DNA of 64,000 nt from Comamonas sp. JUb58 (GTDB lineage Bacteria; Pseudomonadota; Gammaproteobacteria; Burkholderiales; Burkholderiaceae_C), in NCBI RefSeq assembly GCF_004364775.1, contig NZ_SOAL01000009.1, forward strand, positions 62,001 through 126,000, given 5' to 3'. This document shows positions 39,612-50,605 of the stretch, one piece after another. Position 1 is the first letter of the stretch. Each line of letters begins with the position of its first letter. Position numbers and translations under genes: made by a program. The notes under the pieces were generated by a model, which saw only the letters and a list, made by a program, of their open reading frames with translations, ran no database searches and had not been told where the DNA came from.

Positions 39612-40376
39612 CTAGGCGCCCCCATGCTCAGGCGCCGGTGCAAAGCTCATGAACAGGCCGTAGATGCCCAGCTGTGCTGCAATCTGCGGCAGAAAGCTGA
39701 ACAGCATGTACAGCGGCAAGGTGACGAGCAGGCTGAACTGCTGGGACAGCCAGGCGAGCGAGGCGGCTTGCAGCGGGATGCTGATGACGAGCATCAGCAT
39801 GCCGGTCAAGGTGGCGGCCACCTTGTGCAGCACCGGAATCGGGAAGATATACAGCACCAGTGCATGCACGGCAGGCAGCAGCCAGAGCATGGCCAGGCCC
39901 ATGTCCAGGATGTTGTCGGCCAGCAGGCGGTTGACGTCGCTGACCGCCAGCGTGGGCAGGAACTCATAGGAGAGCAGGCCCACGATGCCCAGCAGCGCGA
40001 CGATGCGCAGCCCATAGATCAGAGGCAGGCGTTCGCGCGAGAGCACAAAGGACAGTGCCATCAGCCCCAGCGACAGCAGCGCGCCGCCCCACCATTGCCA
40101 GAGGTTGGGGGCCGGCACATAGAAATGCGTGCGCACCACATCGATGGGCATGCCCAGCAGCGAGGTGGTCTTGACCTCCACCCCGTCACTGCTGCCCAGG
40201 CCCAGATGCGGCCAGGCCCAGCCCAGCACATCGGCCCAGCGGTGCATCAGCAGCGGCGCGCCCCACCACAGCACCAGCCAGAAGGCCAGCAGCAGCACCA
40301 GCAGCTGCGCGCTGTGCTGCCAGGTCCAGATATAGCTTCTGAGCCCTCGGTGCTGGCGGGTCATGCGCAAAGACAT
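39612..40376 (-). CDS. polytopic membrane protein, last gene of the exopolysaccharide operon
   Basis: 254 residues with about six hydrophobic segments: near 22-42, 92-110, 118-140, 158-178, 182-205 and 208-248. Between the first and second segments is a soluble loop (about 45-90) rich in Trp and containing the GVEVKTTSLLGMPIDVVRTHFYVP stretch. It has no recognisable catalytic motif. It lies nine bases after the outer-membrane barrel gene and ends the seven-gene minus operon. It may be an accessory subunit of the polysaccharide synthase or of export. I do not recognise the family. Confidence 0.82.
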   Translation of the reverse strand: MSLRMTRQHRGLRSYIWTWQHSAQLLVLLLAFWLVLWWGAPLLMHRWADVLGWAWPHLGLGSSDGVEVKTTSLLGMPIDVVRTHFYVPAPNLWQWWGGALLSLGLMALSFVLSRERLPLIYGLRIVALLGIVGLLSYEFLPTLAVSDVNRLLADNILDMGLAMLWLLPAVHALVLYIFPIPVLHKVAATLTGMLMLVISIPLQAASLAWLSQQFSLLVTLPLYMLFSFLPQIAAQLGIYGLFMSFAPAPEHGGA

Positions 40377-40385
40377 GGCGGGGCC

Positions 40386-41255
40386 TTAGAAGTCGAAGAA
40401 CACCGCAGCGCTCAGGCCCTTGCGGTTGTAGTAGGGGTTGCGGTAGAACTGGCCGCCGACCAGGTAGCCCCAGTCCTTGCCCAGCCACTGGCGCCATTGC
40501 AGGCTCAGCTCGGTCGACTGGAAGCCGACCTGGTCACCGGCGCCATTGGCGATGGCGCCGCTGGGCAGATAGCCTTCCTTGCCGTGGTCGATGCGGGCGG
40601 TGAAGTAGTGCTGCTTTTCGCGGCCCATGGTCAGCGCGGCAAAGCCCCGGTAGCCTTCCACCGAGCCGGGGTTGGATTTGTTGTAGACCACGCCGCCTTC
40701 GCCGACCCAGTCATTGGCCGAGTAGTAGGCCACCGAGGCGGTGATGCCGGTGTCGCGGTGGATGCCGTCGCGGCTGGCCGACTTCATCAGGGCCAGGCCG
40801 GTCACCCACTGCTGGCTCTCAGTCCACTTGCGGTAGATGGCGATGTCGCCACGGTATTTGTTTTGGAAGTCCGCCGAGCCGGAGCTGGCGCCCACCGACA
40901 TGTACCACCAGGGCGACAGGGTCTGCGTCAGCGACAGCGCACCGACGGTGCCGCGCTGGTCGAAGTGGCGCTGGCTGGACAGTTCCCAGTTCAAGGTGGT
41001 GCCGGGCTTGAGGCCGACATTGCCGCGCACGAATTCGTCGTTCCAGTTGCTGTTGCCGCCGGTCAGGCTGGAGAAGCCCGCGCCGATATCGACCTGGCCG
41101 CGCTTGCCGGGTTCAAAGTCGGCGGCGGGTGCAGCAGCGGGCTCGGCGGCGGTGACGGGGGCAGCAGCGCTGGCGGCCGTGGTCTGGGCCATCGCGGGGG
41201 CCAGCAGGGCGGCGGCGCTCAGGGCCAGGGAGCTGCGGAGGAGGAAGGTGTTCAT
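40386..41255 (-). CDS. YaiO-like outer-membrane beta-barrel protein
   Basis: 289 residues from ATG 41255; a TTG 24 bases upstream is less likely. The signal peptide is about 1-23 (LRSSLALSAAALLAPAMAQ). An Ala/Pro-rich spacer is followed from about residue 50 by repeated amphipathic strands with alternating aromatic residues, ending in AAVFFDF, a C-terminal Phe signature recognised by the Bam machinery. The sequence belongs to the YaiO type of outer-membrane barrel. In this operon it is the only outer-membrane protein and is the likely polysaccharide exit or anchoring pore. It lies 20 bases after the epimerase gene. Confidence 0.85.
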   Translation of the reverse strand: MNTFLLRSSLALSAAALLAPAMAQTTAASAAAPVTAAEPAAAPAADFEPGKRGQVDIGAGFSSLTGGNSNWNDEFVRGNVGLKPGTTLNWELSSQRHFDQRGTVGALSLTQTLSPWWYMSVGASSGSADFQNKYRGDIAIYRKWTESQQWVTGLALMKSASRDGIHRDTGITASVAYYSANDWVGEGGVVYNKSNPGSVEGYRGFAALTMGREKQHYFTARIDHGKEGYLPSGAIANGAGDQVGFQSTELSLQWRQWLGKDWGYLVGGQFYRNPYYNRKGLSAAVFFDF

Positions 41256-41275
41256 GGTGTTCTTGTGTGGGTTTT

Positions 41276-42460
41276 TCAAAGGGAGGATGGCGGCAGATGG
41301 CGGGCAATCGCGGCGGCAATCTGCACACCGCTGCTGCCATCGCCAAAGGGGTTGTCCACCGTGGCGGGCGGTTGGCCAGGCAACTGGCCGGTGGCCAGCA
41401 CATGGCTGGCGGCCGAGAGGATGCGTTCGGCCTGGGTGCCCACCAGCAAGCCGGCGCCGCAGGTGATGACTTCCGGGCGTTCGGTCACATCGCGCATCAC
41501 CAGCAGCGGCTTGTGCAGCGAAAGGCCTTCTTCCTGGATGCCGCCCGAATCGGTCAGCAGCAGCTGGGCAGCGTCCATGATCTCGACCATGGGCGCGTAA
41601 TCGAGCGGCGCGGTCAGGCGCCAGCGGTTCTGCACCTCGGCCGTGGTGGCGGCATGCACGCTGCGCACCACGTCCTGCACCAGCGGGTTCAGGTGCACCG
41701 GCCAGATCACGGCGGCATCGGGGTGCTGCTCCAGCAGGCGGGCCACCGATTGGGCGATCTCCACCATGGGCCCGCCCCAGTTCTCGCGCCGGTGTGCGGT
41801 CACCAGCACCAGCTGGCGCAGGCCGCTGTCAACAAACCACTGGTAGTCCGGGTTGGCCACCGGCTGGCCGGCAGCGCGCTGCTTGCGCACATGGCGGGCA
41901 GCCAGCAGCACGGCATCGACGACGGTGTTGCCGACCACCGAGACCTCGCCCGGGACGTTTTCCTTTTCCAGGTTGTCACGGGCCTGGCCGGTGGGCGCAA
42001 AGTGCCATTGGCTGACGCGGCCGATCAGGCTGCGGTTGATCTCTTCGGGGAAGGGCTCGGAGATGCGGCCCGAGCGCAGACCCGCCTCGACATGGCCAAC
42101 GGGAATCTGCAGGTAGGAGGCAGCCAGCGCGCCCATGGCGGCACTGCTGGTGTCGCCATGCACCAGTGCCACGGCAGGCTTGAGGCTGGCCAGGGTGCTG
42201 CCGATGGCGGACATCAGCTCGCTCGACAGCGCCGGCAGGGTGGCGACTTCGCGCTTGAGACGGATCACCTCCTGGGGTGCAATGCCAAAGAATTCATACA
42301 GCGGCCAGGCCATCTCTTCGTGCTGGCCAGTGTGCAGCACATGGGTGGTGATGCCGCGCGCGCGCAGCGCCAGCACCACCGGGGCCATCTTGATGATCTC
42401 GGGCCGGGTGCCCATGATGGCGGCCACGGAGAAGGAGGAGGAAGGGTTGGAGGTGCTCAT
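41276..42460 (-). CDS. wecB: UDP-N-acetylglucosamine 2-epimerase (non-hydrolysing)
   Basis: 394 residues. It interconverts UDP-GlcNAc and UDP-ManNAc. Signature segments are AAIMGTRPEIIKMAPVV near the N-terminus, VHGDTSSAAMGALAASYL, VGHVEAGLRSG, VTAHRRENWG and LTDSGGIQEEGLSL, which carry the UDP and substrate contacts. Length is normal. Its ATG overlaps the stop of the deacetylase gene by four bases, so it is coupled to the polysaccharide operon. It therefore supplies UDP-ManNAc for the polymer, or balances the UDP-GlcNAc pool. No UDP-ManNAc dehydrogenase follows, which argues against a ManNAcA-type product. Confidence 0.94.
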   Translation of the reverse strand: MSTSNPSSSFSVAAIMGTRPEIIKMAPVVLALRARGITTHVLHTGQHEEMAWPLYEFFGIAPQEVIRLKREVATLPALSSELMSAIGSTLASLKPAVALVHGDTSSAAMGALAASYLQIPVGHVEAGLRSGRISEPFPEEINRSLIGRVSQWHFAPTGQARDNLEKENVPGEVSVVGNTVVDAVLLAARHVRKQRAAGQPVANPDYQWFVDSGLRQLVLVTAHRRENWGGPMVEIAQSVARLLEQHPDAAVIWPVHLNPLVQDVVRSVHAATTAEVQNRWRLTAPLDYAPMVEIMDAAQLLLTDSGGIQEEGLSLHKPLLVMRDVTERPEVITCGAGLLVGTQAERILSAASHVLATGQLPGQPPATVDNPFGDGSSGVQIAAAIARHLPPSSL

Positions 42461-44349
42461 GGTAGGCGATGCAGTTCAAGGCTGAGTTCTTTGCCGTCCT
42501 GTACGCGGACCAGCCAGGCATCGTCGGTGCCTTGCACCTGGGCCTGACCAGTGCGCACGCGCACGGCATCGTATTTGGTCTTGGGAACGGTCCAGGTCAT
42601 CGACTCCAGGGACCGGTTGTGGCTGGCGCTGAGCAGGTCGTTGTCACCGTCGGCGGTGATGGTCCACTGCACCTGTTCGCGACGGCTGAGGAAGTCGGCC
42701 GCCTCGGTCATCGAGATGAACTGGCACTGCTTGCGGTCCGCGCAGGCCTGCACGCTGTCGATATAGGCCTTCACTGCGGGCAGGTAGTCCACTGCGCCAA
42801 TCGGGTGGAAGTAGCTCAGGCGAACGCTGCGGGTGTGCTCGATAAAGCGCGCCACCTGCTGCAGCCACTGGCCGAACTCGTCAATGGGCATCTTCTGGAA
42901 CGAGGCCTCTTCGGCCGAGGCCACCTGGCCATAGGTCAGCACCGGGAAGGCCCAGGACTGGTTGACCTGGCGCGTGCCCAGCCACAGCCGCGTGGGCGGC
43001 ATGCCGACATTGGCCACCGTGTAGAAGGCCTGCACGCCGTGCTCGGCCATCCAGTCGTAGGTCCAGAGCGGGGTGTTGCCATTGGGGGCCGAGTATTCCT
43101 TGGGCTGCAGGCCATGGTTGGCCTTGGTGACCGAGGCGTTGTTCAGGTCCAGCAAGGGCATGAAATCATCGGCATTGTCGTCCGATGCGTTGTTGCCGAA
43201 ATAGTTGTGGATCCAGCCGCCATGGTTGCCGATACTGTGGCCCTGGCTCAGCAGCTTCTGGATCATCTGCTGGGCGTCTTCGTTGTAGTCCAGGTCCATG
43301 CCCAGGCCATCGCCCTGTTTGTTCACATCCGGGCCGGCGGTGAAGTGCAGGGACTGGTGGCCGTGCTCAAAAATGCCGGCTTCCTGCAGCTCGTGCAGAA
43401 AACCGATCGCCTTGCCGTCGTCGTTGTGCCAGTTCAGTACCAGCGCGCCAATGCCGTCGGGCGAGGCGAGCAGCGCAGGGCGCTCCACCACCTGCTGGGA
43501 AAAGTAGGACAGAAAACCGTGCAGGAAAATGCCGTCGGTGCGTTCGAGCAGGTAGGTCAGCGGCAGGTTGACAAACAGCGCCTGGCCCTTGCCCCAGCGG
43601 TTGAGGCTGGCCACCACATCGCCATTGCTCGATTGCAGCAGGATGCGTGCACTGCCCTTGGGACGGTCGGTCTTCAGCACGGTAAAGCGCTGCGAATCCT
43701 TGGTGTAGCCGGCGATGAAGCTGGGGAAGGCGGGTACATCCACTTCCAGCTCTTCGGGATCGATGGCGGTGAGCTTGGCAGCAGCCTTGGCATCCAGATA
43801 GCGCCCGGGGGGAATGCCCAGCAGCTCCATCGTGGCGGGTGCGCCCCGGATCTCTTCATAGTCGGAGAGCCGGTCCTTGTAGGTGTCGTAGTCGCCGTAG
43901 CGCACGCCCAGCATCTCGGACAGGCGCGAGGTGCCCTTGCTGTAGTAGCCGCGCTCGTCGAGCATGCCGCCGTCCTGCACCACCATGGCCTGGCCGCCAG
44001 CCTGCACCACCTGGATCAGGGTCTGCACGGCCGCATCCGAGATATTGCGGTGGAAGGTGTCGGGCAGGATCACGGCCTGCTGCGCGGCTGGGGCGCCGTA
44101 GTTGATGCCGCGCATCCATTCACTGATGCGCAGCGGCGTGAGCAGCACGCCGCGCTCATGTGCTGCCTGGCGCCAGATCTGGACCTCGGGGGCGTTGGGG
44201 GCCATGCTGTCCGGAATCAGCAGGCTGATGGTGGCGTAGTGCTGGCTGGCCTTGACGCTGCGCGCCTGGTGCCAGGCGATGGCGGCCAGCGCGCACAGCA
44301 CGACCACGGTGGCGGCCAGCCATTTTTTCCAGCGCAAGAGCTTGTTCAT
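42457..44349 (-). CDS. membrane-anchored polysaccharide deacetylase with amidotransferase-like N-terminal domain
   Basis: 630 residues from ATG 44349. The N-terminal anchor is about 11-27. Residues about 38-270 resemble a class I glutamine-amidotransferase-like fold (LLIPDS, ILPDTFHRNISDAAVQTLIQVVQAGGQAMVV) without an evident catalytic triad. Residues about 300-545 are a NodB-type deacetylase: Asp310-Asp311 in NWHNDD and His376/His381 in GNHGGWIHNY give the metal triad, and SAPNGNTP (about 420-427) is the third motif. A beta-rich tail follows. The protein would remove N-acetyl groups from the exported polymer in the periplasm. It overlaps the epimerase gene and lies ten bases after the toroid-like gene. 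Confidence 0.87.
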   Translation of the reverse strand: MNKLLRWKKWLAATVVVLCALAAIAWHQARSVKASQHYATISLLIPDSMAPNAPEVQIWRQAAHERGVLLTPLRISEWMRGINYGAPAAQQAVILPDTFHRNISDAAVQTLIQVVQAGGQAMVVQDGGMLDERGYYSKGTSRLSEMLGVRYGDYDTYKDRLSDYEEIRGAPATMELLGIPPGRYLDAKAAAKLTAIDPEELEVDVPAFPSFIAGYTKDSQRFTVLKTDRPKGSARILLQSSNGDVVASLNRWGKGQALFVNLPLTYLLERTDGIFLHGFLSYFSQQVVERPALLASPDGIGALVLNWHNDDGKAIGFLHELQEAGIFEHGHQSLHFTAGPDVNKQGDGLGMDLDYNEDAQQMIQKLLSQGHSIGNHGGWIHNYFGNNASDDNADDFMPLLDLNNASVTKANHGLQPKEYSAPNGNTPLWTYDWMAEHGVQAFYTVANVGMPPTRLWLGTRQVNQSWAFPVLTYGQVASAEEASFQKMPIDEFGQWLQQVARFIEHTRSVRLSYFHPIGAVDYLPAVKAYIDSVQACADRKQCQFISMTEAADFLSRREQVQWTITADGDNDLLSASHNRSLESMTWTVPKTKYDAVRVRTGQAQVQGTDDAWLVRVQDGKELSLELHRLP

Positions 44350-44359
44350 GGTGTCAGCC

Positions 44360-45361
44360 TCAAGGGTTGGCAGCAGGGGCGGTTGCGGGCGCTGTGGTTT
44401 TCGCAAAAGGGCACTGGGTGCCAATGCCCTTTTGCGCCAGCGCCTGGTCGATCATCGCATCCAGCACGGTCCAGCCTATCGTGGCCTGGAAGGGCCGCAG
44501 CGACGCGCGCCAGCAGGCCGCCTGGATCGGGGCGGTCTGGCGCATTTTCCACGCAACCAGGCCCCATGCATAGTCATCTTCGCTGCGCGACAGCCAGGCC
44601 TTGCCATGCAAGGCCAGCCACTGGGCAGTGGCGCGGTCCGATTCGGCGCTGGAAATCACGCCGGTTTGCCACAGGTAGGCGCTGGCCAGGGTGTGGGGGT
44701 AGAAGCGCGGCTGGTCGTATTCGGGCAAGGCCGGCTTCCAGTCGCTGCCGCTGCGAAAGTTGCGGGTGATGGCGGTCGCGAGCTGCTTGGAGGCGGGGCC
44801 GGCCTGTGCACCTTCGGTCACGCGCAGCGCTTCGTAGACCTCGACGTTGTCCATCAGGTAGTACAGCTCGGTGTTCAGCAGCGCCTTGTAGAGCTGGTTC
44901 TTGGGGTTGCGCAGGCGCGTAAGCAGCTGTTGGCTGCGCACAATGGCCAGATCGGCAGCCACCAGCTGGCTGGTGGTCAGCCATTTTTTCTCGCGTGCCT
45001 GGTGCAGCATCTCGATCGTGGTGGCGGCCATGGAGTCGTCGGCATCGGCACCCATGCAGCTGCGCCAGCCCATGTCACCGGTGGGGCAATAGCGGTCAAA
45101 GCCCCCGTCCAGGCGCTGGCGCGGCAGCAGCCAGGCCAGCCAGCGGCGCAGCTCGGCCTTGAGCGGCACATCGGCCTGCAGCGCGATGGTGAAGCCCTTG
45201 TTGACGAAGTAAGGATCCACTACCTGGCCGCCCAAGGTCGTGTAGTAGGCGCCATCGCCTGTGGCAAATTCGGCCAGCGCCGGGGGCTCGGCCGCCTGCG
45301 CGCTGCCCGCCAGCTGCCAGGCCATGGCGGCCGAGGCCATCCAGAGATTGCGTGTTTTCAT
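44360..45361 (-). CDS. secreted helical protein, possible (alpha/alpha)-barrel glycoside hydrolase
   Basis: 333 residues. The signal peptide is about 1-23 (ends GSAQA-AE). The mature part is mainly helical with repeated Trp/Leu-rich helices and a central GGFDRYCPTGDMGWRSCMGADADDS loop. Acidic Asp clusters on such loops recall the catalytic face of (alpha/alpha)6-barrel glycoside hydrolases, such as those that trim bacterial exopolysaccharides. No family motif was recognised, so the role is inferred. ATG 45361 overlaps the stop of the bactofilin-like gene (ATGA). It may cleave polymer during synthesis or export, as lyases and hydrolases do in alginate and Pel loci. Confidence 0.72.
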   Translation of the reverse strand: MKTRNLWMASAAMAWQLAGSAQAAEPPALAEFATGDGAYYTTLGGQVVDPYFVNKGFTIALQADVPLKAELRRWLAWLLPRQRLDGGFDRYCPTGDMGWRSCMGADADDSMAATTIEMLHQAREKKWLTTSQLVAADLAIVRSQQLLTRLRNPKNQLYKALLNTELYYLMDNVEVYEALRVTEGAQAGPASKQLATAITRNFRSGSDWKPALPEYDQPRFYPHTLASAYLWQTGVISSAESDRATAQWLALHGKAWLSRSEDDYAWGLVAWKMRQTAPIQAACWRASLRPFQATIGWTVLDAMIDQALAQKGIGTQCPFAKTTAPATAPAANP

Positions 45362-46311
45362 AGCACCACCTGTCCGGAACGTACGGCAGCAATACTGCCA
45401 TAGACCCGCACACTGGCGTGCAAGGCGATGGTCCAGGCCGAGACACTGCTGGGGCATTCCTTGTCGCCCACCTGGCTGTCCGGGCCCAGATGCAGGCGCT
45501 TGCCGGCGCACAGAGGGCCTTCGACATAGTTGTTGCCCTTGGTCTGCAGGTCGCCCTGCACAAAGACGGCGCCCTGCACACAGGCGCTCTGCGCCAGGAT
45601 GGCATTGCCATGCACCTTGATATGGCCCACGACCACGGACATCTCTTCCATCAGCAGGTTGCCGGTGACCACCAGGCCGCCCCGCACGATGGTGCCGGCC
45701 GGAATGCGCAGGTCCCCTTCATGGCGGCGTTGCAGGGTCGTCAGCGGCATACCGGTGCCCAGCTCGGGCAGCGGAAAGCTCAGCGAGCGCTTGAGCGGCC
45801 AGGTGAAGATGCAGGCGGCCGAGAGGCGCAGAAAGCGCGCACCGGGCGACAGCACGATATGGCGCTCGGCGCTGGTCAGGCGGGCCAACTGGGCAGGGCC
45901 CAGGCAGTGGATGCTCTTGGCATGCAGCACGCGCTGCACCACGCTGTTGGCCTGCAACTCGACCACATCGCTGGAGATCAGGGTGCGCAGCTGGGAGCGA
46001 AAGCCGATCACCACCGGCACCTGGGTCTTGGCCATCAGGCGGTTCTGGCCCCGGGGCACCATCAGGCGGCCCTGGTCATCGTGGCGCCATTGGGCGACAC
46101 GGGGCATGGCTTCCAACAGGTCGAGCTGGTCGGCCATGCGCTGGGCCGTGTAGTCGGTGCGGCCGTTGTCCAGCGGGTCAATGGCCAGCGCATCGGCATC
46201 ACTGCGCGAATACAGCTCGCGCAGCGCTGGCAACAGGGGCAGAAGGAAGACCAGGGCGGTCGCGATCAGCCACATGCTGCCAAACAGCAAGGGGTTGGCG
46301 GGGGCGGTCAT
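45358..46311 (-). CDS. membrane-anchored polymer-forming (bactofilin-like) protein
   Basis: 317 residues. An N-terminal transmembrane segment (about 10-30) is followed by an all-beta region. From about residue 195, short repeats such as GDLRIPAGTIVRGGLVVTGNLLMEEMSVVVGHIKVHGNAILAQ give the regular turn pattern of a right-handed beta-helix, as in bactofilins. It may form a scaffold at the membrane for the synthase, or bind the polymer. Its ATG overlaps the glycosyltransferase stop by four bases, so the two are produced together. The middle part (about 60-190) shows no known motif. Confidence 0.82.
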   Translation of the reverse strand: MTAPANPLLFGSMWLIATALVFLLPLLPALRELYSRSDADALAIDPLDNGRTDYTAQRMADQLDLLEAMPRVAQWRHDDQGRLMVPRGQNRLMAKTQVPVVIGFRSQLRTLISSDVVELQANSVVQRVLHAKSIHCLGPAQLARLTSAERHIVLSPGARFLRLSAACIFTWPLKRSLSFPLPELGTGMPLTTLQRRHEGDLRIPAGTIVRGGLVVTGNLLMEEMSVVVGHIKVHGNAILAQSACVQGAVFVQGDLQTKGNNYVEGPLCAGKRLHLGPDSQVGDKECPSSVSAWTIALHASVRVYGSIAAVRSGQVVL

Positions 46312-47774
46312 ACACGTGCTTCAGGCAGGGCGACGGTGGCGACAGCAGCGGCCTGCGCAGCGGCGGGGGCTGCAGCGGGCGCCTGGCGGTAGCGCACGGT
46401 CTTGTCCCATTTGAACTGGCGCTTGAACAGCTTGTCGAGCAGCAGCCCATCGATCGTGGCCTTGGAGACCGCGACCATGCTGACCACAAAACCCGTCAGC
46501 AACAGTGGCAGCAGACGCAGGCGGCGTTGGTGGCCATCCAGGTGCACGGCAGCGGCCACTTCAAAGAAGGCGGCGAAGTTACCCACGCAGGCAAAACCGG
46601 TGGCAATCAGCAGCATCAGCAAGGCAATGTTCACATTGGCGCCGATGCCGTAGCCGGTCACTGTCAGCACCAGGGCCAGCAGCCAGCCCACCAGCAGGAT
46701 GGGTGACATCAGGAACACGCCCAGCAGCGCCACGCCGTCGACCCGTTCCATCCAGCGCAGGCCCTTGCGGGTCAGCATCTCGGTGCCCAGCTTGGTCATC
46801 ACCTGGTTGTGGCCCTTGGCCCAGCGGCTGATCTGGCGAAAACGCACGGCCCAGCTCTCAGGCACTTCTTCGTAGCATTCGGCGTAACCCAGGTAGGCGG
46901 TTTGCCAGCCCTTGAGCAGCAGACGGTAGGTCAGGTCGGTGTCTTCGGCCAGCACTTCAGGTGTCCAGCCGCCGACATCCTGCAGCGCGCTCAGGCGAAT
47001 GCCGCCGACGGTGCCGCCATATTGGGCCACGGCGCCCATGTTGAAGCGGGCTTGCTGGTCGACCTGGTAGCCGCCGGAGCGCTCCAGATCCAGCAGGCGG
47101 GTGAGCAGGTTCACACCAGCGTTCTGTGGCACCACGCGGCCCATCACGGCGCCCACTTCGGGGTCGAGGAAGGGGGCCACCAGTTGCTTGATGATTTTCT
47201 TGCCAGGCAGGTAGTCGGCGTCGAACACCACGATCAGCTCGGACTCACCCCGGGCCTGCACGATGGCGGTGGCATCGGCCAGCGCCGCAGCCTTACCTGG
47301 GGGGCCTTCCTGGCGGTGGAACAGCTGCAGGCGGCCGGGGTGGCGGTCGGCATAGCTGTCGATGATCTGGCGTGTGCCATCGGTCGAGCGGTCATTGACC
47401 GGCATGATCGTCAGGCGGTCACGTGGGTAGTCCACGTCCAGCAGCGCCTCGATGCAGCCGGAGATCACGGCCTCTTCGTTGTGCGCGGCAATAAAGACGG
47501 TGATATGGGGCCAGTGCGCCTGCTCGATGCCGGCATACAGCGGGCGCTGGCGGGCAAACAGGCGGTTGAGCGTGAAGGCGTAGTGGCGGAAGGTGTAAAG
47601 CGCCTCCAGCAGCACCACCAGCATCAAGGCCGCCAGGCACAAGCCCAGTGCCCAGGTCGCCCAGCTGGCTTGGTAGAGCGTTGAGGGCTGTGCATGGGCA
47701 AGCACAGGCGAAAAGCCCAGGAACGCTGCGCAGAGTGCAGGTGCCTGAAGAAAAGGGGCGGAGTGCTTGGCCAT
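46308..47774 (-). CDS. processive family 2 glycosyltransferase (polysaccharide synthase)
   Basis: 488 residues. It is the synthase of the operon, of the PgaC/hyaluronan-synthase/BcsA type. The first transmembrane segment is about 40-62. The GT-A domain has Asp128 (NDRSTDGT), the metal motif Asp185-Ala-Asp187 (VVFDADYLPG), the acceptor base Asp278 (LAEDTD) and the processivity motif Gln314-x-x-Arg317-Trp318 (QISRW). Three or four C-terminal transmembrane segments (about 345-445) form the translocation path. No PilZ domain is visible. The substrate is probably UDP-GlcNAc or UDP-ManNAc, given the epimerase in the operon. ATG 47774 has only a weak ribosome site. Confidence 0.92.
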   Translation of the reverse strand: MAKHSAPFLQAPALCAAFLGFSPVLAHAQPSTLYQASWATWALGLCLAALMLVVLLEALYTFRHYAFTLNRLFARQRPLYAGIEQAHWPHITVFIAAHNEEAVISGCIEALLDVDYPRDRLTIMPVNDRSTDGTRQIIDSYADRHPGRLQLFHRQEGPPGKAAALADATAIVQARGESELIVVFDADYLPGKKIIKQLVAPFLDPEVGAVMGRVVPQNAGVNLLTRLLDLERSGGYQVDQQARFNMGAVAQYGGTVGGIRLSALQDVGGWTPEVLAEDTDLTYRLLLKGWQTAYLGYAECYEEVPESWAVRFRQISRWAKGHNQVMTKLGTEMLTRKGLRWMERVDGVALLGVFLMSPILLVGWLLALVLTVTGYGIGANVNIALLMLLIATGFACVGNFAAFFEVAAAVHLDGHQRRLRLLPLLLTGFVVSMVAVSKATIDGLLLDKLFKRQFKWDKTVRYRQAPAAAPAAAQAAAVATVALPEARV

Positions 47775-49150: not shown

Positions 49151-49178
49151 TTTAAAGGAGAATTTACATATTGAAACT

Positions 49179-49203
49179 ATTACATGTACACATCACATGT
49201 AAT
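49179..49203 (+). promoter_or_regulatory. perfect nine-base dyad in the leader of the PspA/flotillin cluster
   Basis: ATTACATGT (49179-49187) and ACATGTAAT (49195-49203) form a perfect inverted repeat around ACACATC. It lies just downstream of the predicted start of transcription and 19 bases before the ATG, a standard place for a repressor operator. Confidence 0.6.
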
Positions 49204-49221
49204 GACTGTTATGGTGGCCGC

Positions 49222-49860
49222 ATGGACCAAAAAACATCTGCCCACTACCAGCGCTTGCACCGCCAACGGTTGCGCGAGCAGGGGCTGGTGAAGAAAGAGG
49301 TCTGGGTACTTCCAGAGTACAGCGCGGTCCTGCATCTGCTCGAGAAGCAGATGCGCCAGCCGCAGGCGCAACCGGGTTCATTGACCATCCACCAACAGGA
49401 GGGGAGCATGGAAAACAGCAAGCACCACTACCGCAGCATTCAGGCGCTGGCCGAAGAGCTGGGCGCATCGGCGCTGGCCCGTGAGGGCAAGTTGCAGATA
49501 GAGCTACTGGAAGGGACCGAGACCAGCGTGCTGGTCACCTTGTCCGATTTTGGCGATCTACCCGTGCATGTGGCCCTGTCGGGCGAGCAGCTGGTGGTCG
49601 AGGCCTTTTTGTGGCCTGCCAACCAGGTGCGTGACGGCGCTGGCCTCAATGCGCAAATCCTGCGCCTGCAAAAGCTGTTCCCGTTCACGACGATGGCGCT
49701 GGAGCCGCTGGCCCGGGGTGGCGAGGGCTATGTGATGTTTGCTGCGATGCGCGCCAACAGCAGCACGGACGACATCCTCGCCGAGATCCTGATCCTGGCC
49801 GACAGCGTGATCCAGGCCACCGAGGCGCTGGCACCCTATCTGACCTTGGCGCAGGTCTGA
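49222..49860 (+). CDS. YjfI-like (DUF2170) protein
   Basis: 212 residues from ATG 49222. A TTG at 49171, with AAAGGAG ten bases before it, would add 17 residues but would begin almost at the predicted transcription start. The N-terminal 45 residues are basic (AHYQRLHRQRLREQGLVKKEVWVLP). From about residue 60 an alpha/beta domain follows that I assign to the YjfI/DUF2170 family (LALAEELGASAL, FPFTTMALEPL, DDILAEILILADSVI). In enterobacteria yjfI precedes yjfJ, a PspA homologue, and here too the next gene encodes PspA, 40 bases downstream. Its molecular role is unknown; a PspA-accessory function in membrane maintenance is inferred. Confidence 0.82.
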   Translation: MDQKTSAHYQRLHRQRLREQGLVKKEVWVLPEYSAVLHLLEKQMRQPQAQPGSLTIHQQEGSMENSKHHYRSIQALAEELGASALAREGKLQIELLEGTETSVLVTLSDFGDLPVHVALSGEQLVVEAFLWPANQVRDGAGLNAQILRLQKLFPFTTMALEPLARGGEGYVMFAAMRANSSTDDILAEILILADSVIQATEALAPYLTLAQV

Positions 49861-49900
49861 GCGCAGCCCGTCCCCGACCCCACAGTACAAGGAGAGCATC

Positions 49901-50605
49901 ATGACCGTATGGAACAAGCTGGTGACTGCGCTGCGCGGCGCGGCGCACGAGGCGGGTGAAGCCGTCACCGACAGCCAGGCGCTGCGCATCTTGGACCAGG
50001 AAATCCGCGATGCCGACAACGACCTGAACAGCTCCAAGGAAGCGCTGGCCGAGATCATGGCCAAGCAAAAGCTGTCCGCCGGCAAGCTGCAGACCACGCA
50101 AGCCAAGATTGCCGAATACGAGGGCTATGCGCTCAAGGCGCTGGAAACCCAGGACGAGGCCCTGGCGCTGGAAGTGGCCGGCAAGGTGGCCCTGCTCGAA
50201 ACCCAGCGCGACGAAGAAGAAGCCCAGCTGGGGGCCTTTACCCAGAGCGTGGAGCAGCTGCGCACGGCGATCCAGACGGCGCAGTCGAACATCAAGCGCC
50301 TCAAGCAGCAGGCGGACACCGTCAAGGCCACCGAGAGCGTGCAGCGCGCCCAGGCCACGGTGGCCGGTCGCTACACCGGCTCGCAGTCGCGGGTGCAGAC
50401 GGCGCTCGATTCGCTCGAGCGCATCAAGCAAAAGCAGGCCGAGCGCGGCGCCCGCATGGAGAGCGCGGCCGAGCTGGCACAAAGCAGCAGCGAAGACGCA
50501 CTCGATGCCAAGCTGCGCGCCGCTGGCATCACCGCCAGCGCCGGCAATGCGCAGTCGGTGCTGGAGCGCCTCAAGGCGCAACGCGCCGGCAACAAGGAGG
50601 CCTGA
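49901..50605 (+). CDS. PspA/IM30-family membrane-stress protein
   Basis: 234 residues; ATG 49901 follows CAAGGAGAGCATC. The protein is almost entirely coiled coil, as in the ESCRT-III-like PspA/Vipp1 family, with a short amphipathic N-terminal helix (MTVWNKLVTALRGAAHEAGE) that would bind stressed membranes. SQALRILDQEIRDADNDLNSSKEAL and the Gln/Lys/Glu heptads (about 60-190) make up the hairpin. Such proteins assemble into rods or rings that shield or repair damaged inner membrane. It is the YjfJ type, not the sigma-54/PspF-linked pspABC type, because no pspB, pspC or pspF is present. Confidence 0.9.
   Translation: MTVWNKLVTALRGAAHEAGEAVTDSQALRILDQEIRDADNDLNSSKEALAEIMAKQKLSAGKLQTTQAKIAEYEGYALKALETQDEALALEVAGKVALLETQRDEEEAQLGAFTQSVEQLRTAIQTAQSNIKRLKQQADTVKATESVQRAQATVAGRYTGSQSRVQTALDSLERIKQKQAERGARMESAAELAQSSSEDALDAKLRAAGITASAGNAQSVLERLKAQRAGNKEA

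Follow-up and report, generated by a model that had tools for sequence, protein, structure and literature searches.

The described systems closest to the locus treated here are the pga and yaiO loci of Escherichia coli and the bacterial cellulose synthase (bcs) system, together with the enzymes PelA and Agd3. In E. coli K-12, yaiO lies together with yaiX (putative acyltransferase), yaiP (putative glucosyltransferase) and yaiS (putative deacetylase); yaiX (L098:4845-6873), between yaiO and yaiP, is annotated as a pseudogene interrupted by IS2. PelA is reported to carry H526-x-D528-x-D530, to lack the motif 3 Arg and to be an active enzyme (PMC12022489). Agd3 is reported to be composed of alpha/beta/alpha, carbohydrate esterase (CE) and beta-sandwich domains and to have homologues in uncharacterised bacterial operons (PMC7229062). 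We analysed a 64,000-nucleotide stretch of Comamonas sp. JUb58 (contig NZ_SOAL01000009.1, positions 62,001 to 126,000; hereafter the window), in which seven genes, g1 to g7, lie on the minus strand at 39612-47774, running from 47774 to 39612. Very probably, this locus encodes a machine that assembles and exports an exopolysaccharide in a synthase-dependent manner and belongs to a class that we did not find described. Among the synthase-dependent exopolysaccharide loci it forms a conserved subtype that has apparently no earlier description.

The seven open reading frames named in a preliminary description of this DNA were confirmed. The ATGA-type overlaps mentioned there occur at three junctions (g1/g2, g2/g3 and g4/g5; 4 bases each), and the remaining three intergenic gaps are 10, 20 and 9 bases. 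The first gene, g1 (46308-47774), encodes a processive, PgaC-like GT2 synthase of 488 amino acids. It matches PF13641 (1.4e-32) and has five hydrophobic segments (two N-terminal, three C-terminal), and its DxD, ED and QISRW motifs are kept in 70-72 of 72 aligned rows, the row of the window included. The locus thus has the processive-type GT2 with DxD, ED and QxxRW motifs and transmembrane segments that characterises a synthase-dependent exopolysaccharide system, and the processive QxxRW synthase of the preliminary description is upheld.

Conservation of the gene set was analysed with two anchors. Two short g4 motifs were scanned against genome contigs, which gave 151 relatives, and the best 80 were retained. 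Single-sequence searches of these 80 loci matched g1 in 71, g2 in 70, g3 in 45, g5 in 70, g6 in 72 and g7 in 53; after profiles had been iterated on the same 80 loci, the counts were 71, 72, 55, 70, 72 and 71, respectively. The six genes g1, g2, g4, g5, g6 and g7 occur together in 66 of the 80 loci and all seven in 50, the carriers being Beta- and Gammaproteobacteria and Acidobacteriota. Seven of the 14 exceptions to the six-gene set come from contigs that are truncated or very short (L029, L036, L049, L052, L058, L061, L086), two (L020, L032) lack g5 only (no tblastn match), and a Bradyrhizobium locus (L081) lacks g3, g6 and g7. In 14 of 19 Acidobacteriota cluster loci (L036, a cut contig, left out) g3 was not found. 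The commonest gene order is g5-g1-g2-g3-g4-g6-g7 (13 loci), followed by g5-g1-g2-g4-g6-g7 (12 loci, all Acidobacteriota); the order of the window itself is found in 8 loci. No neighbour family beyond the seven is common to most of the 80 loci, the most frequent extra group being present in 11, with a PAS-GGDEF-EAL protein (L018) as an example. This protein (L018:4079-6862) is encoded divergently upstream of a Sphaerotilus cluster, a possible link to cyclic di-GMP. A 199-codon frame without a Pfam match lies between g5 and g4 at L068:9167-9763, and its homologues occur in seven loci, all Cupriavidus (L056, L061, L065, L068, L071, L073, L074).

The second anchor, g7, was used in a search of 200 genomes of the same family that was meant to avoid selection by g4. 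Fourteen genomes were positive for g7 and 25 for YaiO (21 over the cut-off), and all 14 g7-positive genomes are among the 25 (hypergeometric 4e-15); YaiO adjoins g7 in 13 of the 14. A single g3 sequence found relatives in 7 of the 200 genomes, all within these 14. Clusters were fetched from 12 g7-positive genomes, the other two being G109, where the contig ends, and G000, which is the window. All 12 contain g1, g2, g3, g5, g6 and g7 together, and 10 contain g4, none being present in the stretch fetched for G006 and G032. The preliminary description had proposed neighbourhood analysis as a check, and with either anchor the genes proved to be conserved together. The distribution is patchy. Within the genus, 8 of 53 genomes have g4; within the class, the g4 profile matched 11 of 369 genomes, but only in G000 and G586 did the match span most of the profile, the others being short NodB-motif matches.

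The gene for the outer-membrane barrel, g6 (40386-41255, 289 amino acids), passes the YaiO family model TIGR04390 with 140 bits against a cut-off of 32 and matches PF19413 with 71 bits, in line with the earlier assignment, and is the sole TIGR04390 match in the host genome at E<=0.001. BLASTP between E. coli YaiO and g6 gave no significant match, so the link between the two runs via the family model alone. No TPR match was found in g6, and none of the seven proteins matched a PilZ or TPR family at E<=0.1, as had been stated before. The export channel encoded with the synthase would be this YaiO barrel, which is recognised by profile and for which a channel role is predicted. YaiO was also found near GT2 genes elsewhere. 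In all seven YaiO loci that score over the cut-off and are without g7 (L157-L163), a GT2 gene lies within about 1.4 kb of YaiO. These GT2s are distant from g1 (49-70 bits vs 638-752 for the cluster type), and the seven loci show no match to g2, g3, g4, g5 or g7. In six of them a HEAT-type protein (Pfam confirmed in two) sits between YaiO and the GT2, forming a compact three-gene module within the same bacterial family (L157-L162). Given the proximity of a GT2 to YaiO in these loci and in E. coli, it is a good general hypothesis that processive GT2s have YaiO as their partner in the outer membrane.

The last gene, g7 (39612-40376, 254 amino acids), encodes a polytopic membrane protein without known family. 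Five hydrophobic segments pass the hydropathy cut, which agrees with its earlier characterisation as polytopic, and alignment showed H9, R10, W47, P118, P201 and Y239 to be invariant. Neither a Pfam match in 23 g7 members nor a domain in 41 listed g7 relatives was found. The fold calls for g3, g4 and g7 are based on sequence profiles; PDB searches with these three gave no useful relative, and some weak matches were taken as chance.

The second gene, g2 (45358-46311, 317 amino acids), has a single N-terminal hydrophobic segment by hydropathy and probably encodes a membrane-tethered, bactofilin-like beta-helix protein. The window protein scores 20.6 bits against the bactofilin family PF04519, which is under the gathering score of 27.9 and leaves it outside that family by this measure. 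Kinship to bactofilins is nevertheless likely because 20 of the 22 aligned g2 members match PF04519 at E<=0.01; the scaffold named in the preliminary description is thus retained on the strength of the relatives and not on that of the window protein. Compared with PDB, the g2 profile placed an LpxD structure (6e-4) ahead of a bactofilin (0.098). The ranking does not settle the type of beta-helix, which could be one other than that of bactofilins. An LpxD-type acyltransferase requires a His, and no invariant His is listed for g2, which speaks against this activity.

Downstream of it, g3 (44360-45361, 333 amino acids) encodes a putative glycoside hydrolase (GH) of alpha/alpha-toroid type, predicted to be secreted. 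In a 26-row alignment a DADD motif, an MDNxE motif, two Cys and six Trp are invariant. The protein has no family of its own and matches no curated GH family above cut-off; four of the 26 members match an MGH1-like GH model weakly and three the N-terminal model of squalene-hopene cyclase. The g3 profile gave weak toroid matches in PDB, the best to the thioester region of complement C4 (0.003) and a lower one to a diterpene cyclase (0.14), both of which are alpha/alpha-toroid proteins. We read g3 as a putative polymer-trimming glycosidase. The free-standing protein appears, in our reading, to carry a signal peptide, although no segment passed the hydropathy cut. A Methylobacter relative of g3 (L055:7475-9403) has CBM25 and fn3 domains in a C-terminal extension.

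Natural fusions of g2 and g3 were found in three protein clusters (P0020, P0022 and P0024; 574-579 amino acids). Between the two halves, several Arg and Lys residues are followed by a hydrophobic stretch, which exceeds the hydropathy cut in two of the fusions (P0020, P0024) and in P0022 is visible only by eye; the N-terminal segment passes the cut in P0022 and P0024 and not in P0020. According to the positive-inside rule, basic residues flank the cytoplasmic side of a membrane segment. Their position ahead of the inner segment would therefore place the bactofilin-like half in the cytoplasm and the toroid in the periplasm, suggesting that the bactofilin-like domain of g2 is cytoplasmic and tied to a periplasmic g3 toroid. 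We tentatively entertain the possibility of a separate class of secretion system with a physical link through the inner membrane: a bactofilin-like scaffold, tethered to the membrane on its cytoplasmic side, would be joined to a glycosidase that trims the chain in the periplasm. A cytoskeletal element would then determine where a polymer containing N-acetylmannosamine (ManNAc) is made and cut before it exits through YaiO, the latter acting as a general partner of GT2 synthases. The fusions with their probable topology, the recurrence of YaiO near GT2s, also in E. coli, and the variable presence of g3 and g4 go beyond the preliminary description.

Alternatively, the polymer could be an adhesin or a sheath-like material that, like a holdfast, is deposited locally at the place where the bactofilin-like protein assembles, and not a diffuse matrix. 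Relatives of g2 are present in 72 of the 80 loci, in some of them fused to the toroid, and sheath-forming Sphaerotilus has the cluster (L046, L048), both of which favour local deposition. We nevertheless find it somewhat doubtful, as the higher rank of the LpxD structure means that the g2 beta-helix could be of another type, polymerisation of g2 is putative and most carriers of the cluster are, to our knowledge, not known as sheathed. In the Sphaerotilus clusters (L046, L048, L018, L028), g7 is followed downstream by g3, and an additional g4-like gene of larger size is present.

The polymer precursor is suggested by g5 (41276-42460, 394 amino acids), which encodes WecB, a non-hydrolysing UDP-N-acetylglucosamine (UDP-GlcNAc) 2-epimerase. 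In agreement with its earlier identification it passes TIGR00236 with 363 bits against a cut-off of 210, and it matches epimerases in PDB with E values down to 7e-83. The GDT, H[VI]EAGLR, PEExNR and HRRE signatures, which we take to hold the WecB catalytic residues (the active-site Asp, Glu, Glu and His), are kept in 70 of 71 aligned rows, the remaining row being a gap. Since these signatures are intact, a supply of UDP-ManNAc by g5, as claimed earlier, is likely, and g1 may be the enzyme that uses it. A further 2-epimerase gene of the host lies on another contig. Matches to UDP-sugar dehydrogenases over the cut-off lie on host contigs 13, 7 and 6, with a weak match below the cut-off on contig 9 outside the window, and none lies inside the operon. 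This fits, and does not prove, the use of UDP-ManNAc itself rather than its uronic acid as polymer precursor.

The relationships of g1 bear on whether the product might be ordinary poly-N-acetylglucosamine (PNAG) or another GlcNAc homopolymer, made by a rebuilt pga-like locus in which WecB balances nucleotide-sugar pools. The best NCBIfam model for g1 is indeed PgaC_IcaA (124 bits), and g1 is 31% identical to E. coli PgaC over 257 amino acids. The score is, however, far under the equivalog cut-off of 422, families PgaA, PgaB and PgaD are absent from the matches of the seven genes, g4 shows no significant similarity to PgaB, and WecB is present in 70 of the 80 loci, a constancy for which pool balancing would give no need. 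We therefore regard a PNAG-type product as unlikely. Against the CelA model g1 scores 77.7 bits (cut-off 699). The 69 cluster GT2s (over 380 amino acids) are monophyletic among 79 sequences with a FastTree support of 0.951, and the identity of g1 to the remaining GT2s of the cluster is 43-99%, compared with 20-24% to PgaC, BcsA, YaiP and seven GT2s from other YaiO loci.

The largest protein of the locus, g4 (42457-44349, 630 amino acids), is a predicted membrane-anchored, divergent NodB-like protein. It consists of a transmembrane segment, an amidotransferase/GH42M-like alpha/beta domain, a divergent NodB-like domain and what we read as a C-terminal beta region. The amidotransferase-like domain is seen as PF08532 (GH42M) in 9 of 28 aligned members. 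The window protein scores 15.5 bits against PF01522, under the cut-off of 23.1, and is not one of the 24 of these 28 members that match PF01522 at E<=0.01. A comparison of the g4 profile with a canonical NodB profile gave 86% probability in the region of motifs 2 and 3, the canonical set being thin at seven proteins (7 of 30 loci passed a motif filter that read one strand each). Motif 1 is placed by us at N306-x-H308-x-D310 (N-[WI]-H-x-D), to which the NodB profile match does not extend; all three residues are invariant in the 28-sequence alignment. In motif 2, H376 and H381 are invariant in the 28 sequences with the spacing HxxxxH instead of HxxxH, and in motif 3 the Arg is replaced, the sequence reading EYSAP. 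An Asp/His/His set is thus retained without the canonical Asp-Asp (TFDDG) and Arg motifs. With respect to CE4, g4 has the NodB fold with the motif 2 histidines and has neither the catalytic base Asp beside the metal Asp nor the activating Arg.

Other esterase families were considered as well. Agd3_CE (PF25115, CE18) had no match in the host genome at E<=10 and none in the 28 g4 members at E<=0.01, and the GH114-type hydrolase of PelA (PF03537) had no match in the host genome. A kinship of g4 to PelA was rejected: a profile of six PelA-type sequences, which were chosen by GH114 match and show H-x-D-x-D at the expected place in four of six by pattern, gave 0.1% probability, whereas canonical NodB as a control gave 45% against the same profile, and only the likeness in domain order was kept. 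We regard g4 as a probable divergent NodB-fold protein that could not be placed in CE4, CE18 or CE21, and the chance that it deacetylates as about even. Of the anchored NodB deacetylase with an amidotransferase-like domain in the preliminary description, the anchor, the NodB likeness and, through PF08532 in relatives, the additional domain hold, and the canonical catalytic motifs do not. The absence of these motifs and of a CE18 or PelA match makes a partly de-N-acetylated polymer plausible and no more; the earlier claim to this effect is not established, also because 2 of 13 clusters (the 12 fetched and the window) show no g4 in the stretch fetched.

For an exopolysaccharide machine encoded by this locus, the following sequence of events can be proposed. 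WecB (g5) would make UDP-ManNAc, and g1 would polymerise one or two N-acetylhexosamine sugars and, perhaps together with g7, carry the chain through the inner membrane. On the cytoplasmic side, the bactofilin-like g2 would gather the machine at one site and, via g3, position a periplasmic glycosidase; g4 may bind and edit the chain by de-N-acetylation or a related hydrolysis, and YaiO (g6) would pass the polymer through the outer membrane. Several points weigh against this proposal. The lack of canonical deacetylase catalytic motifs in g4 is one, and g2, g3 and g4 are assigned by matches that lie below threshold or were obtained with relatives. YaiO is a small barrel whose role as export channel is deduced from gene company. 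Four loci, L064 (a 9.3-kb contig), L077, L085 and L087, have a g4 relative without any of the other families, which means that the g4 family also occurs outside the cluster. The linkage of g7 and YaiO is unseen in G109, where they are on different contigs, and the two anchors are not fully independent because the g7 profile was built from g4-anchored loci. That the locus makes no new polymer and instead serves to modify peptidoglycan or lipopolysaccharide, glycans already present in the envelope, is very improbable, even though NodB-fold proteins and bactofilins often act on peptidoglycan, given a synthase with kept QxxRW in 71 of the 80 loci, a YaiO barrel in 72 and no match of the seven genes to a peptidoglycan hydrolase or lipid-carrier family.

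The host genome is 5.46 Mb in 60 contigs, and named species near to it include Comamonas piscis (91% for g3) and C. koreensis (90% for g4). The operon is flanked on one side by genes for glutamate dehydrogenase, a fumarylacetoacetase-type hydrolase and muconolactone isomerase, and on the opposite side by genes for enoyl-CoA hydratase, a DUF2170 protein and a PspA/IM30 protein, all with functions other than those of the operon. The DUF2170 and PspA/IM30 genes adjoin each other upstream of the operon (window 49171-50605). The GC content of the operon is unremarkable at 0.64-0.66, taken in 4-kb steps, and promoter and terminator scans at both operon ends found nothing.

In the open-access literature, as far as its texts were available, no described locus with this gene content was found among the matches listed, which is in keeping with the preliminary description. 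The Rubrivivax psc1 and Janthinobacterium loci, candidates with WecB and NodB by keyword, were rejected, as they sit among wza/wzx/wzy or epsH genes. The loci named in the accessible parts of the Variovorax paradoxus, Cupriavidus metallidurans and Leptothrix/Sphaerotilus literature are others. If our interpretation is true, one more class joins the short list of synthase-dependent polysaccharide systems, patchily distributed in Proteobacteria and Acidobacteriota. It would offer testable roles for a YaiO barrel and for a polytopic protein without a Pfam family, and a case of a bactofilin-like scaffold encoded with, and sometimes fused to, polysaccharide machinery. Should the scaffold indeed be coupled to the glycosidase as outlined above, the YaiO family would gain a general role as outer-membrane partner of processive GT2 synthases.

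By the features tested, the locus is distinct from pga, bcs and pel, as previously proposed. With E. coli pga it shares a PgaC-type GT2 synthase, a NodB-fold periplasmic protein and an outer-membrane barrel, a likeness that draws in part on the folds of PgaA and PgaB. It differs in that g1 is not a PgaC above cut-off accompanied by PgaA, PgaB and PgaD, for which no match of these types was found, and in the addition of WecB, the bactofilin-like protein, the toroid and g7. The bcs system likewise has a GT2 with QxxRW and a separate periplasmic glycosidase (BcsZ, annotated endo-1,4-D-glucanase), but the seven proteins include no match to PilZ, BcsB or BcsC, and no PilZ-bearing BcsA above cut-off with its partners was found. 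Nor was a PelA with GH114-type hydrolase and CE21 domain, as in pel. As reported, PelA (CE21) and Agd3 (CE18) resemble g4 in the domain order alpha/beta, CE and C-terminal beta, and PelA also in the lack of the motif 3 Arg (PMC12022489, PMC7229062). In contrast to both, g4 gives no profile match and has N-x-H-x-D, not H-x-D-x-D or DD, as motif 1 and HxxxxH, not HxxxH, as motif 2. The yaiO-yaiX-yaiP-yaiS region of E. coli is alike in that a GT2 gene and genes for a putative acyltransferase and deacetylase are found close to that for a YaiO barrel; the identity between YaiP and g1 is 25%, and no WecB, g3 or g7 is annotated there. The YaiO-HEAT-GT2 modules (L157-L162) share the close pairing of YaiO and GT2, but have a HEAT protein between the two, a GT2 that is 20-23% identical to g1 and no match to g2, g3, g4, g5 or g7 within the 16-17 kb fetched. 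The elements that are new with respect to these systems would be a bactofilin-like scaffold linked to a periplasmic toroid, a near-constant WecB and YaiO as the likely export barrel.

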